Assembly: GCA_947629065.1 (NCBI GenBank)
Contig: CANRCH010000014.1
Location: 1 to 18,906, forward strand
Origin: an uncultured Aliarcobacter sp.
GTDB lineage: Bacteria; Campylobacterota; Campylobacteria; Campylobacterales; Arcobacteraceae
DNA length: 18,906 nucleotides
Direction: 5' to 3'
Under the pieces are notes generated by a model. It saw only the letters and a list, made by a program, of their open reading frames with translations. It was not told the DNA's origin and searched no databases. Shown piece by piece: positions 1,957-13,334 of this stretch. Positions within the stretch are counted from its first letter, which is position 1; every line of letters begins with the position of its first letter. The translations under genes and the position numbers were made by a program.

Positions 1957-3495
<1,539 letters not shown>

Positions 3496-3496
<1 letters not shown>

Positions 3497-3623
3497 ATAA
3501 AGCTTAGCTTTTGGCGAATTTCTTCGTTGAAGAAAGATTTTTTAAATGCTCATTTACTATTAGTAAACTCGCAAAAAAAATCTTCCTTCGCCTTGAACTT
3601 CATCCAAAATTTTAAGCTTTATT
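3496..3623 (+). repeat. Fold-back element 1 (128-bp imperfect palindrome)
   Basis: Sequence seen: outer 11-bp perfect inverted arms (AATAAAGCTTA at 3496-3506 with TAAGCTTTATT at 3613-3623); a second arm TTTTGG (3509-3514) with CCAAAA (3604-3609); an inner 15-bp arm with one mismatch (3529-3543 with 3575-3589); and a tip hairpin TTTACT/AGTAAA (3553-3558, 3562-3567) with loop ATT. Between the paired parts lie boxes that recur in the neighbouring element: TCTTCGTT (3521-3528), CTCA (3549-3552), CTCG (3568-3571) and GCCTTGA (3590-3596). The left arm begins on the last base of the fabI stop codon. It could act as the fabI terminator, a structured RNA or a miniature fold-back mobile element. The structure is certain at sequence level; its role is unknown. 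Confidence 0.85.
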
Positions 3624-3628
3624 AAAAG

Positions 3629-3836
3629 AATGTATCTTTTTCAACACATAGAATTAGTTTTTTACAATTTTAAGAACTTTTTAGAGTTTTTAAAATTATA
3701 AAAATAGATTTAAAAATAGAATGGATATTTTTAGGCAAAATCAAGGCTTGAAAAATCTTAAGTAAACGAGCTTACTTTGGTGTAAGTGAGTGCTTAAGAT
3801 TTTTTGTAAACGAAGATTTTGACAAAAAGATACATT
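3629..3836 (-). repeat. Fold-back element 2, inverted relative to element 1
   Basis: Sequence seen: outer 13-bp perfect arms (AATGTATCTTTTT at 3629-3641 with its complement at 3824-3836); CAAAATC (3736-3742) with GATTTTG (3815-3821); a perfect 12-bp arm AAAAATCTTAAG (3751-3762) with 3793-3804; and a tip hairpin CTTAC (3771-3775)/GTAAG (3782-3786). Read on the minus strand it shows the same ordered boxes as element 1: TCTTCGTT (3816-3809), CTCA (3790-3787), CTCG (3770-3767) and GCCTTGA (3747-3741), at spacings within two bases. Its left flank carries about 94 extra bases (3642-3735) between the outer and inner arms, against 2 bases on the right. The lysA ribosome site starts 4 bases beyond the right arm. 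Confidence 0.82.
3666..3697. other. Small stem-loop nested in fold-back element 2
   Basis: AATTTTAAGAAC (3666-3677) pairs with GTTTTTAAAATT (3686-3697) at 11 of 12 positions around an 8-base loop. It lies in the asymmetric part of element 2 and is very AT-rich. It could be a weak terminator, a remnant of the original fabI-lysA spacer, or chance complementarity in AT-rich DNA. Confidence 0.4.
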
Positions 3837-3850
3837 TTAGAAGGATAAAA

Positions 3851-5056
3851 ATGAATATAGATTTCAAAGCATTAGCAAAAAAGTATAATACACCATATTA
3901 TGTATATGATTTTGACCACATTACAAAACAGTACACAGAGTTAAAAGACTCTTTTAGAGCAAGAAAATCTTTAATTGCATATGCAGTTAAAGCAAATTCA
4001 AATTTAAGTGTAGTAAAACATTTGGCAAACCTAGGAGCTGGTGCAGACTGTGTTAGTATTGGAGAAGTTAAAAGAGCTTTAAAAGTTGGTGTTCATCCAT
4101 ATAAAATAATTTTTTCAGGTGTTGGAAAAAGTGATGATGAGATTAAAGAAGCACTAGAACTTGGAATTTTGATGATAAATGTTGAAAGCGCAGCAGAACT
4201 AGATAGAGTTGAAATAATCGCAAAAGAGTTAGGAAAGGTTGCTAGAATCTCTATTAGAGTAAATCCAAATATAGATCCAAAAACTCATCCATATATCTCA
4301 ACTGGACTTCATGAAAATAAGTTTGGAGTAGATATTGATACAGCTAAAAGAATGTATATTCAGTGTAAAAATAGTGATAGTTTAGATCCAATTGGAATTC
4401 ATTGTCATATAGGTTCACAATTAACAGAACTTGAACCAATAAAAGAGGCTATAAATATTGTTGCAAATTTAGTGCGAAATTTAAAAGCAATTAAAATAGA
4501 ACTATCGTTTTTTGATGTTGGTGGAGGGCTTGGAATTGTATATAAAGATGAAGTTTTAATAAATACTTATGATTATGCACAAGCTGTTTTAGACTCACTT
4601 TTTGGGCTTGATGTTACAATTGTTTGTGAACCAGGAAGATTTATTGTTGGAAATAGTGGAGTTTTTGTTACAAAAGTTTTATATGAAAAAATAAATGGAG
4701 ATAAAAGATTTGTAATTGTTGATGGAGCTATGAATGATCTTTTAAGACCTGCACTTTACGATGCATATCATAGAATTGAAGTATTAAACGAAAACAAAGA
4801 TTTAAGTGATTGTAATGTAGTAGGTCCTGTTTGTGAAAGTGGAGATTTCTTTGCGAAAAATATTGATCTTCCTACTACACAAAATGGAGATTTAATTGCA
4901 ATTTATAGTGCAGGGGCTTATGGATTTACAATGAGTAGTAACTATAATACAAGAGGAAAAGTTGCTGAAATTTCACTTGAAAATGGAAATGATAGATTAA
5001 TAAGAAGAAGAGAGAGTTTTGAAGATTTAATTGCACACGAAATTGAGTTTATATAA
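3851..5056 (+). CDS. lysA: Diaminopimelate decarboxylase
   Basis: A PLP enzyme that decarboxylates meso-diaminopimelate to L-lysine, the last step of lysine synthesis. The 401 residues match the family. The N-terminal alanine-racemase-like barrel carries the PLP lysine (Lys47 in YAVKANSN), HCHIGSQ at 184-190, the phosphate-binding glycines VGGGLG (223-228) and EPGR (260-263). The C-terminal beta domain supplies CESGD (328-332, active-site cysteine) and the GAYG tyrosine (about 357). The ATG at 3851 has AAGGA at 3841-3845. Upstream is the long fold-back region, so it either has its own promoter there or is read through two large hairpins. pheA follows after 12 bases. No lysine-riboswitch-like layout is recognisable upstream. 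Confidence 0.97.
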   Translation: MNIDFKALAKKYNTPYYVYDFDHITKQYTELKDSFRARKSLIAYAVKANSNLSVVKHLANLGAGADCVSIGEVKRALKVGVHPYKIIFSGVGKSDDEIKEALELGILMINVESAAELDRVEIIAKELGKVARISIRVNPNIDPKTHPYISTGLHENKFGVDIDTAKRMYIQCKNSDSLDPIGIHCHIGSQLTELEPIKEAINIVANLVRNLKAIKIELSFFDVGGGLGIVYKDEVLINTYDYAQAVLDSLFGLDVTIVCEPGRFIVGNSGVFVTKVLYEKINGDKRFVIVDGAMNDLLRPALYDAYHRIEVLNENKDLSDCNVVGPVCESGDFFAKNIDLPTTQNGDLIAIYSAGAYGFTMSSNYNTRGKVAEISLENGNDRLIRRRESFEDLIAHEIEFI

Positions 5057-12232: not shown

Positions 12233-12258
12233 AAGAAGATTAATTAATAATTCTTCTT
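12233..12258. terminator. Weak stem-loop between convergent genes
   Basis: AAGAAGA (12233-12239) pairs with TCTTCTT (12252-12258) around an AT-rich 12-base loop, between the membrane protein gene and the convergent NlpC/P60 gene and overlapping the latter's last codons. There is no strong T-run on either side, so termination here is only a possibility. Confidence 0.35.
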
Positions 12259-12713
12259 GCTGTCCAATAGGCATTTTTATAAAAAGGTTTATCAAGTTTT
12301 GTAAATTGAATACCTTTAATTGAAGCGTGTAAAAACTCACCATTTCCTGCATAAACACCAACATGTCTATCAGTTTTTCCAGTTTTAAAGAATACTAAAT
12401 CACCTGGTTTTAATTCAGATTTTTTTATTTCAATACCTTCATTTACTTGTGTTCTAGTCGTTCTTGGAAGTAGTACATTGAATTTTTCTTTAAACATTTT
12501 TTGTGTAAAAGCAGAACAGTCAATTCCATTTTTCCCTGTTCCACCCATTTTATAGTCTAAATGTTTCATCTCATTATAAAACTCTGAAAATACTTTTGAA
12601 TTTTTATAGTTTGTCGATTTTAGGCTATTGTAATCTTTTTTTAATTCAGCAGAAAAAAGAGTTGAACTTAAAAGAATAGATATAGAAACTGCAAGAAGAG
12701 ATTTTTTGAACAT
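12240..12713 (-). CDS. Secreted NlpC/P60-family cell-wall peptidase (non-lipoprotein paralogue)
   Basis: NlpC/P60 proteins are cysteine peptidases that cut peptide bonds in peptidoglycan stems or cross-links. The 157 residues consist of a signal peptide (about 1-22, ending LFSA, with no lipobox cysteine), a short linker and an NlpC/P60 domain from about 45. The catalytic set is present: Cys66 in GIDCSAF, His117 in RHVGVY and His129 in FLHAS, with PGDLVFFKTG between. It starts at ATG 12713 with AAGG upstream. It lies 9 bases after a larger paralogue and shares roughly half its domain residues, so the pair looks like a tandem duplication in one operon. Without a lipid anchor it should be soluble in the periplasm. 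The cleaved bond cannot be told from sequence; E. coli Spr/MepS and NlpC are the nearest familiar relatives. Confidence 0.92.
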   Translation of the reverse strand: MFKKSLLAVSISILLSSTLFSAELKKDYNSLKSTNYKNSKVFSEFYNEMKHLDYKMGGTGKNGIDCSAFTQKMFKEKFNVLLPRTTRTQVNEGIEIKKSELKPGDLVFFKTGKTDRHVGVYAGNGEFLHASIKGIQFTKLDKPFYKNAYWTARRIIN

Positions 12714-12722
12714 AATATAACC

Positions 12723-13334
12723 TTACTTAATAATCCTTTGGGCTTTCCAGTAATTTTTCTTAAAATAGGTATTATCAAGTTCTGAAATAGTTACACCTAT
12801 TTTTGTACTTGCATGCATGAATTTTCCATCTTCAATATAGATTCCGACATGATTTGTTCTACCTGTTTTAAAGAAAACTAAATCTCCCATTTGAAGTTCA
12901 TTCTTGCTTATAGTTTTCCCTATATTTATCTGTTCTTTTGTAGATCTTGGTAGTGTCACATTTGAAGAGTTTTTCATAGCTTGTTGTACAAAACTAGAAC
13001 AATCAATTCCTTTTTTAGAAGTTCCACCAAGTCTATATTTTGTACCTTCCCAATCTTTATAGAAACTTAAAAGGTTATTACTAATATTCTCTTTTTTTGA
13101 AACATAGCTATTTTTATTTGTAAAAATATTCTCTTCTTCATCTACTTTTGATTTATTTAGTTTTTTTATATTTTGAGTGTTATTTAAAGAGGCATTGTGA
13201 TGAATTGATGGTTTATAGTAAGGTTCACTATATTTTGACATATCAACAGTTTCTTGACTGGTTTTAACAGAACAACCTGTAAGAAATAGAATATTAAATA
13301 ACAAAATAAAGGATAATTGCCTAGTACTTTTCAT
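12723..13334 (-). CDS. NlpC/P60-family lipoprotein peptidase
   Basis: A predicted outer- or inner-membrane-anchored peptidoglycan endopeptidase. The 203 residues begin with a lipoprotein signal peptide whose lipobox LTGC puts the lipidated cysteine at 21. A low-complexity, Asn/Lys-rich linker (about 30-85) would span from membrane to wall, and the NlpC/P60 domain follows (about 88-203). Catalytic residues are Cys112 in GIDCSSF, His162 in NHVGIY and His174 in FMHAS. ATG 13334 is preceded by AGGTGA. It is the first gene of a two-gene minus-strand unit and has a good promoter upstream. Layout and length resemble E. coli Spr/MepS and NlpC; which of these roles it plays is not decided by the sequence. 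Confidence 0.93.
   Translation of the reverse strand: MKSTRQLSFILLFNILFLTGCSVKTSQETVDMSKYSEPYYKPSIHHNASLNNTQNIKKLNKSKVDEEENIFTNKNSYVSKKENISNNLLSFYKDWEGTKYRLGGTSKKGIDCSSFVQQAMKNSSNVTLPRSTKEQINIGKTISKNELQMGDLVFFKTGRTNHVGIYIEDGKFMHASTKIGVTISELDNTYFKKNYWKAQRIIK

Follow-up and report, generated by a model that had tools for sequence, protein, structure and literature searches.

What are the two inverted fold-back elements that occupy the gap between a fabI-like and a lysA-like gene of an uncultured Aliarcobacter sp., and what has kept their short sequence boxes while the arms joining these boxes differ? The stretch of DNA analysed, called the window below, comprises 18,906 bases and represents contig C14 of a draft genome of 1.72 Mb. 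Both elements, E1 and E2, are very probably ERIC/IRU-type miniature non-coding fold-back mobile elements of about 124 bp, carried as 3'-UTR hairpins. Profile match, covariation and stop-codon position were computed for this assignment, the empty sites of E2 were read by eye, and mobilisation as well as an effect on mRNA are what we infer.

Two fold-back elements between fabI and lysA

The locus contains the following features (window coordinates, strand).

2669..3496 (+), fabI-like gene, product taken to be an enoyl-ACP reductase; E1 directly follows its stop codon
3498..3621 (-), E1, ERIC-type fold-back with TA at both ends; the strand is that of the CAAGGC...GAG box order
3521..3528 (-), second half of the outer internal loop of E1, AACGAAGA
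3549..3571 (-), tip of E1: CGAG, TTTAC/GTAAA hairpin, TGAG
3590..3596 (-), outer internal-loop box of E1, TCAAGGC
3629..3641 (+), 13 nt able to pair with the end of E2 that faces lysA, outside E2 as delimited
3664..3699 (+), near-palindromic hairpin of the host ahead of lysA; G015, G026 and G028 show it too, as read by eye
3717..3839 (+), E2, ERIC-type fold-back with TA at 3717-3718 and 3838-3839
3741..3747 (+), outer internal-loop box of E2, TCAAGGC
3767..3790 (+), tip of E2: CGAG, CTTAC/GTAAG hairpin, TGAG
3809..3816 (+), second half of the outer internal loop of E2, AACGAAGA
3851..5056 (+), lysA-like gene, presumably encoding diaminopimelate decarboxylase; E2 lies just upstream

Read on the plus strand, E1 displays the boxes TCTTCGTT (3521-3528), CTCA (3549-3552), CTCG (3568-3571) and GCCTTGA (3590-3596), and E2 carries them in the same order on the minus strand. 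The elements are 123-124 bp long. Folding compared with dinucleotide shuffles gave z-scores of -6.5 for E1 and -8.7 for E2, the latter computed over a stretch of 216 nt that is wider than the element, and in each case none of 200 shuffles was as stable. The boxes as located, together with these scores, confirm the preliminary description of two fold-back elements with common boxes and differing arms between the two genes. The self-complementary arms reported there are likewise all present: one of 15 nt pairing at 93%, one of 12 nt pairing at 100%, and the pair of 13 nt formed by 3629-3641 and 3824-3836.

The extent of E2 had to be corrected. A span of 3629-3836 had been given, which is too long: model matches and the comparison of relatives place the element at 3717-3839, between the hairpin upstream of lysA and the lysA start, in antisense orientation. 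Since the outer arm of E2 itself begins at 3717, the segment 3629-3641 is, judged from the sequence, not its left end. This segment, situated just past E1, forms a perfect 13-base inverted match with the end of E2 (3824-3836), which could be due to chance or could be the footprint of an E2 once located at the fabI side, as in G028.

A strict pattern of the boxes matched in 5 of 104 Arcobacteraceae genomes, with matches resembling real copies in G000 and G028 only. Since a reversed control matched equally often, the strict pattern alone is non-discriminating; it is folding, profile match and covariation that lift the elements above chance. Elsewhere in the window, two adjacent similar secreted proteins are encoded on the minus strand at 12240-13334, which look like NlpC/P60 hydrolases.

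Assignment to the ERIC type

In the preliminary description no described family could be named. Covariance models point to the ERIC type. Model R2 comprises nine ERIC copies, seven of them named enterobacterial (E. coli, Phytobacter, Rahnella, Raoultella, Pantoea, Candidatus Pantoea formicae and Pluralibacter) and two from viral contigs, with none from Arcobacteraceae. Applied with default filters to the 18,906 bases, it returned exactly two matches up to an E-value of 10, namely E1 (3500-3622, minus strand, 38.8 bits, E 1.7e-8) and E2 (3716-3837, plus strand, 28.4 bits, E 1e-5). Unfiltered, the scores over the window were 38.8 bits for E1 and 28.3 bits for E2, followed by 11.3 bits for the next match.

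The stricter model R3, built from five named enterobacterial ERIC copies, gave no match in the window with default filters, while E1 (32.4 bits, E 3.1e-6) and E2 (19.4 bits, E 0.0058) were its top two matches without filters, the next reaching 10.8 bits. R3 thus both weakens and supports the naming, and because its filtered search of the window was empty, the match of E2 to the small enterobacterial set is weak. Among 14 hand-chosen loci from Arcobacteraceae and other groups, R2 matched 14 and R3 matched 12, missing L034 and L077 with default filters; at L046 the model match was found at 425-547 or 429-543, away from the copy that had brought the locus in. On the basis of these matches, E1 and E2 are filed as ERIC-type.

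ERIC-PCR came into use for typing in the early 1990s. In one publication (PMC10773081), the ERIC primer sequences include GTAAGCTCC and GTAAGTGAC, which are the tip boxes of the elements described here. The inner primer parts GTAAGCTC and GTAAGTGA are found in E2, and E1 has GTAAACTC and GTAAATGA, each differing by a single base, whereas the outer primer parts match neither element. E. coli EC4 has a copy (L197) in its ahpC-ahpF gap that, by eye, agrees with each ERIC primer at 20 of 22 positions. With the Phytobacter copy as query, similar places were detected in 4816 of 5426 E. coli genomes; a stretch of MG1655 around the ahpC start, which does not include the ahpC-ahpF gap that holds the EC4 copy, contained no copy at up to four substitutions.

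At Rfam gathering scores, neither the window nor 12 further loci matched any family over the element, and ten loci gave no match at E-values up to 0.5; an E-value search yielded four weak matches that lay far below the gathering scores. A blastn search of the window region against plasmids and phages gave no match. Ideas of a relation to REP, YPAL or RSA elements, the latter two known here by description alone, were set aside after the ERIC primer match.

Distribution of copies

Many further copies exist, which the preliminary description had named as support for a structured family. In a blastn search of 104 Arcobacteraceae genomes, E2 was matched in 19 and E1 in 47. Model R1, built from a hand-chosen alignment of 52 sequences, detected copies in 82 of the 104 genomes and in 18 of 20 genera (E up to 0.001, at most 34 candidates scored per genome), with four copies in the genome of the window. 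Within Campylobacterota, copies were found in 68 of 249 genomes and 21 of 55 genera (E up to 1e-4, 14 candidates scored per genome).

Beyond this phylum, R1 matched all of 32 genomes preselected for a pattern match. With 112 candidates scored in each genome, the copy number ranged from 1 to at least 112; five genomes held at least 110 copies and two a single one. The set includes Chlorobium, Bacteroidales and other Bacteroidota, Pseudomonadota, Clostridia, Mucispirillum, Scalindua, Nitrospirae, Deltaproteobacteria and Verrucomicrobia. By their names these genomes represent nine further phylum-level groups, although many are metagenome bins and single assignments may err. R1 itself contains sequences from most of these groups, so that the survey counts copies and does not test the model blindly.

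A degenerate version of the box pattern was found in 13 viral contigs and in at least 119 stretches of named bacterial genomes. Among the latter are L137 and L183, in records named Acidobacteriota and Coriobacteriales, two more phylum-level groups. The viral contigs, 13 IMG/VR records (L064-L076), contain the core, and the copy in L070 adjoins a tRNA cluster; these copies may be host flanks or true phage copies.

Several arrangements of copies were observed in addition. Inverted twins like those of the window occur at G333:C4:349021-349280, G144:C1:1578560-1578903, G308:C1:841750-842156 and at two more places of G308 with the same scores. The order is minus then plus in the first three, and the other two places in G308 are the same pair read either way. 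Head-to-tail pairs are present in G185 and G173. In G207, G304, G308 and G336 three copies of identical score are found per genome, as if they were located in multi-copy operons such as rRNA operons. G343, the Nitrosomonadales bin that contains L083, has at least 112 matches in 2.3 Mb; because many of these are near-equal in score and several lie at contig ends, the repeat probably breaks this assembly.

Folded core and covariation

The 52-sequence alignment consists of 14 rows from loci of the family, one further family row (L152), four viral-contig rows and otherwise named genomes. CAAGGC, the tip boxes and AACG...G are nearly invariant in it, and 26 of 32 predicted pairs display a compensatory change. 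The outer internal loop is formed by CAAGGC opposite AACGC.G (AACGAAG in the copies of the window), the tip loop by GGAG or CGAG opposite TGA around a TAC/GTA hairpin. It is the core that stays constant, and the arms vary by compensatory change.

For counts within the family, 47 of 54 loci (L010-L063) could be parsed at up to five substitutions, and 7 were left unparsed. In 36 of the 47 parsed copies, 28 of 36 pairs have changed on both sides and 86.1% of cells pair. Cells in which both sides of the same pair had changed numbered 175, compared with 51.8 +- 5.9 after shuffling and 35-71 with slid partners. The subset of 17 copies from the fabI locus behaves alike, with 22 pairs changed on both sides and 69 such cells against a shuffled mean of 19.8 (maximum 31) and 7-16 with slid partners. 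In both sets the shuffles ignore relatedness. Conserved boxes joined by covarying stems, as proposed in the preliminary description, are thus borne out, and the two findings named there as speaking against a structured family, a lack of further copies and arms that are not complementary, are contradicted by the 82 Arcobacteraceae genomes with copies and by the covariation in both data sets.

The ends are less uniform. By eye, TA is found at both ends of E1 and E2 and at the empty site of E2. Over 83 copies elsewhere, with arms extended automatically, the terminal dinucleotides were mixed, TA/TA being counted 24 times and AG/CT 41 times.

Position relative to genes

E1 and E2 are intergenic. 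The gene-end position of ERIC is shared, except by E2, which lies antisense before lysA. Of the 47 parsed family copies, 46 have an outer box that starts 4-36 nt past a co-directional stop codon, the exception again being E2 of the window; many of the 46 occupy the same fabI locus and hence are not independent cases.

Stop codons were also counted around 130 distinct copies in L064-L195, which comprise viral contigs, named genomes and L152. A sense stop codon of an open reading frame of at least 80 codons was located within 110 nt in 57 of them, and in 38 of the 57 it fell within the terminal arm, 48-61 nt past the tip box. An antisense stop was found in 27 copies (at 30-42 nt in 12), both in 9 and neither in 55. 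Stops in the arm were TAG in 18 of 51 cases compared with 172 of 822, a weak excess (p 0.022).

History of the fabI-lysA locus

The C-terminus of the fabI-like product (IAWNGTDK, followed by the stop) served as anchor for lining up relatives. Of the 31 genomes of the genus, 29 yielded the lysA locus, whose states were read by eye. Eight genomes (G001, G002, G006, G019, G021, G022, G025 and G029) have an intact E1-like copy after fabI, and two (G012 and G027) a decayed one. In G003, G004, G010, G011, G013 and G017 (L238, L256, L251, L239, L240 and L255) a short hairpin with similar outer arms and no core is present, which may be a deletion product or an ancestral hairpin. Other hairpins follow fabI in G005, G007, G008, G009, G015, G023, G024 and G026, and none in G014, G016 and G030. 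The window has both E1 and E2.

In G028, a copy of E2 with 95% identity is situated at the fabI side in opposite orientation. The site of E2 before lysA consists of just TA in G015, G026 and G028, as read by eye at this one locus. Because of these empty sites and the opposite orientation of the G028 copy, E2 appears to have moved, or to have been inserted twice, since these species parted, and its insertion seems to be recent. It is unlikely that an inversion took the adjoining hairpin with it, since this near-palindromic host hairpin has the same orientation in G028, to the extent that its mismatches allow a judgement. Signs of mobility, of the kind named as a check in the preliminary description, are seen at the E2 site. 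The long retention at fabI fits a host function equally well.

Two further ideas on the origin of the elements were followed. The core might have been inserted into terminator hairpins, as considered for the similar arms of the six coreless relatives (TAGTCA..TGACTA; TAGTTA..TAACTA in G010); this was dropped because several genera have the filled state in common and deletion accounts for the pattern equally well. An autonomous partner was sought in a Pseudomonas genome, where 38 terminal-repeat places formed eight convergent pairs spanning 98-264 bp, with no longer pair up to 6 kb, a result that counts against the mobile-element reading. A Chromobacterium genome contained 388 terminal-repeat places.

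Which strand folds, and alternative explanations

If the elements are ERIC-type mobile elements as proposed, insertions would be tolerated at gene ends, which would explain why most examined family copies start at or near an upstream stop codon; they would be carried as the 3'-UTR hairpin of that mRNA. Such hairpins would be tolerated and sometimes useful. A putative enzyme that needs the folded core would most likely mobilise the elements in trans, the core would be kept, and the arms could drift by compensatory change. Old copies would persist at some loci, such as fabI across several genera, while others would be lost, decay or move. By analogy to ERIC of Yersinia, the copies may affect stability or end-formation of the upstream mRNA; there, ERIC at 3' ends is described to alter mRNA stability through an RNase E site in an orientation-dependent manner (PMC2229807, PMC10969869).

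The same position would be expected of a host 3'-UTR RNA element, whose sense hairpin ends or stabilises the transcript as a terminator or RNase processing signal and is kept at orthologous genes, mobility being incidental. This explanation is possible though doubtful. It would account for the 46 sense copies after a stop codon, many of them at one fabI locus, for the compensatory changes among the 17 fabI-locus copies, and for the other or shorter hairpins that, by eye, follow fabI in 14 of 29 relatives instead. However, intact, decayed, hairpin-only and absent states occur within one genus, and a consensus scan of 3300-4000 found no terminator-like site. Moreover, the strand antisense to the sense (fabI-like) direction folds better as RNA in 46 of 47 family copies, by a mean of 12 kcal/mol, and the CAAGGC strand is the better RNA fold in 64 of 70 parsed copies of L064-L195; conserved G-A mismatches on the CAAGGC strand contribute part of the difference. 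Since the host mRNA in the family carries the other, weaker-folding strand, these data suggest that an mRNA hairpin is not the whole reason why the fold is kept, and tend to favour either a folded DNA strand or an antisense RNA.

The former would be a CAAGGC strand that, in single-stranded form, is the substrate which a strand-specific recombinase or transposase recognises, working like attC sites or IS200 ends without belonging to either; this appears rather unlikely. The fact that in the family this is not the strand found in host mRNA is in its favour, as are the conserved G-A mismatches and the pairing bias. With symmetric pairing, G-T exceeds A-C on the CAAGGC strand in the outer arms (72 vs 10 in 38 rows from outside the family loci, mostly of other groups, and 34 vs 2 in 14 family rows) and in the main stem of the family (14 vs 2 in the 14 rows, 44 vs 11 in 36 copies). 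In contrast, the main stem of the 38 rows is unbiased (23 vs 26), and a count over 70 imperfectly parsed copies runs in the opposite direction (36 vs 59). The excess per sequence, 24 to 5, derives from a structure predicted with G-U allowed on the CAAGGC strand and is hence biased that way; related sequences, in addition, share positions. The strand signal, clear in the outer arms and the family and absent from the main stem elsewhere, is suggestive only. A structured RNA made from the CAAGGC strand, either antisense or stand-alone, would equally profit from the better fold of that strand, yet promoter-like sites in 3300-4000 number 6 against 3.3 +- 1.8 in shuffles and the Rfam searches of the window and 12 further loci gave no match, which leaves this explanation quite improbable. 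Membership in the REP/REPIN or IS200 type, considered in the preliminary description, is extremely unlikely: fold-back structure, intergenic location and inverted twin arrangement would agree with it, but about 124 bp compare with 20-40 bp given for REPs (PMC3733652), and the profile match points to ERIC.

Comparison with known systems

A 2024 review places ERIC in Enterobacteriaceae and Vibrionaceae and cites a 2011 paper on ERIC in Gammaproteobacteria genomes (PMC10969869). For two Arcobacter butzleri genomes, a 2013 study states that ERIC primer sites are absent, and questions ERIC-PCR (PMC3566208). ERIC targets outside enterobacteria have thus been doubted, and ERIC-type elements are present in most Arcobacteraceae genomes examined here; in these copies the inner primer parts are conserved and the outer parts are not. 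A search of CC-licensed literature gave no report of ERIC-like elements in other phyla; subscription literature lay outside its scope, so that an earlier description is possible. A class with common loops in ten phylum-level groups, reaching at least 100 copies in some genomes, would constitute a sizeable amount of unannotated intergenic DNA, and its many natural variants offer a means to establish which structure is recognised, which enzyme mobilises the elements and how mRNA is affected. Tentatively, ERIC may be the enterobacterial corner of a pan-bacterial miniature class, in which the constant part would be the folded core on the CAAGGC strand with fixed internal loops, mobilisation would proceed via the folded single strand, stems and ends would be free to vary if pairing is kept, and insertions at gene ends would favour one orientation since this puts the weaker-folding strand in the mRNA.

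In typical MITEs, the terminal repeats form the constant part, whereas in elements of the E1/E2 type it is the interior core. Correia/NEMIS, RUP and other TA-flanked MITEs resemble them, by description, in TA ends, fold-back structure and lack of coding capacity (PMC2229807). YPAL/RU-2 of Yersinia is likewise palindromic and intergenic, with a proposed role in RNA stability, but differs by the review's description in its length of about 168 bp and in termini without TA (PMC2229807). QMITE2 of Coxiella is described as residing mostly in 3' untranslated regions (PMC10969869). From ERIC/IRU/RU-1, E1 and E2 differ in AT-rich stems, arms of other sequence and the absence of full ERIC-PCR primer sites, and the hosts lie far outside the Enterobacteriaceae and Vibrionaceae named in the 2024 review (PMC10969869). 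Nevertheless, the likeness to ERIC comprises size (123-124 vs 127 bp), the common order of CAAGGC, GAGYTTAC, GTAARTGA and AACG, the imperfect palindrome, intergenic location, TA at the termini of these two copies as read by eye, position at gene 3' ends and the profile match.
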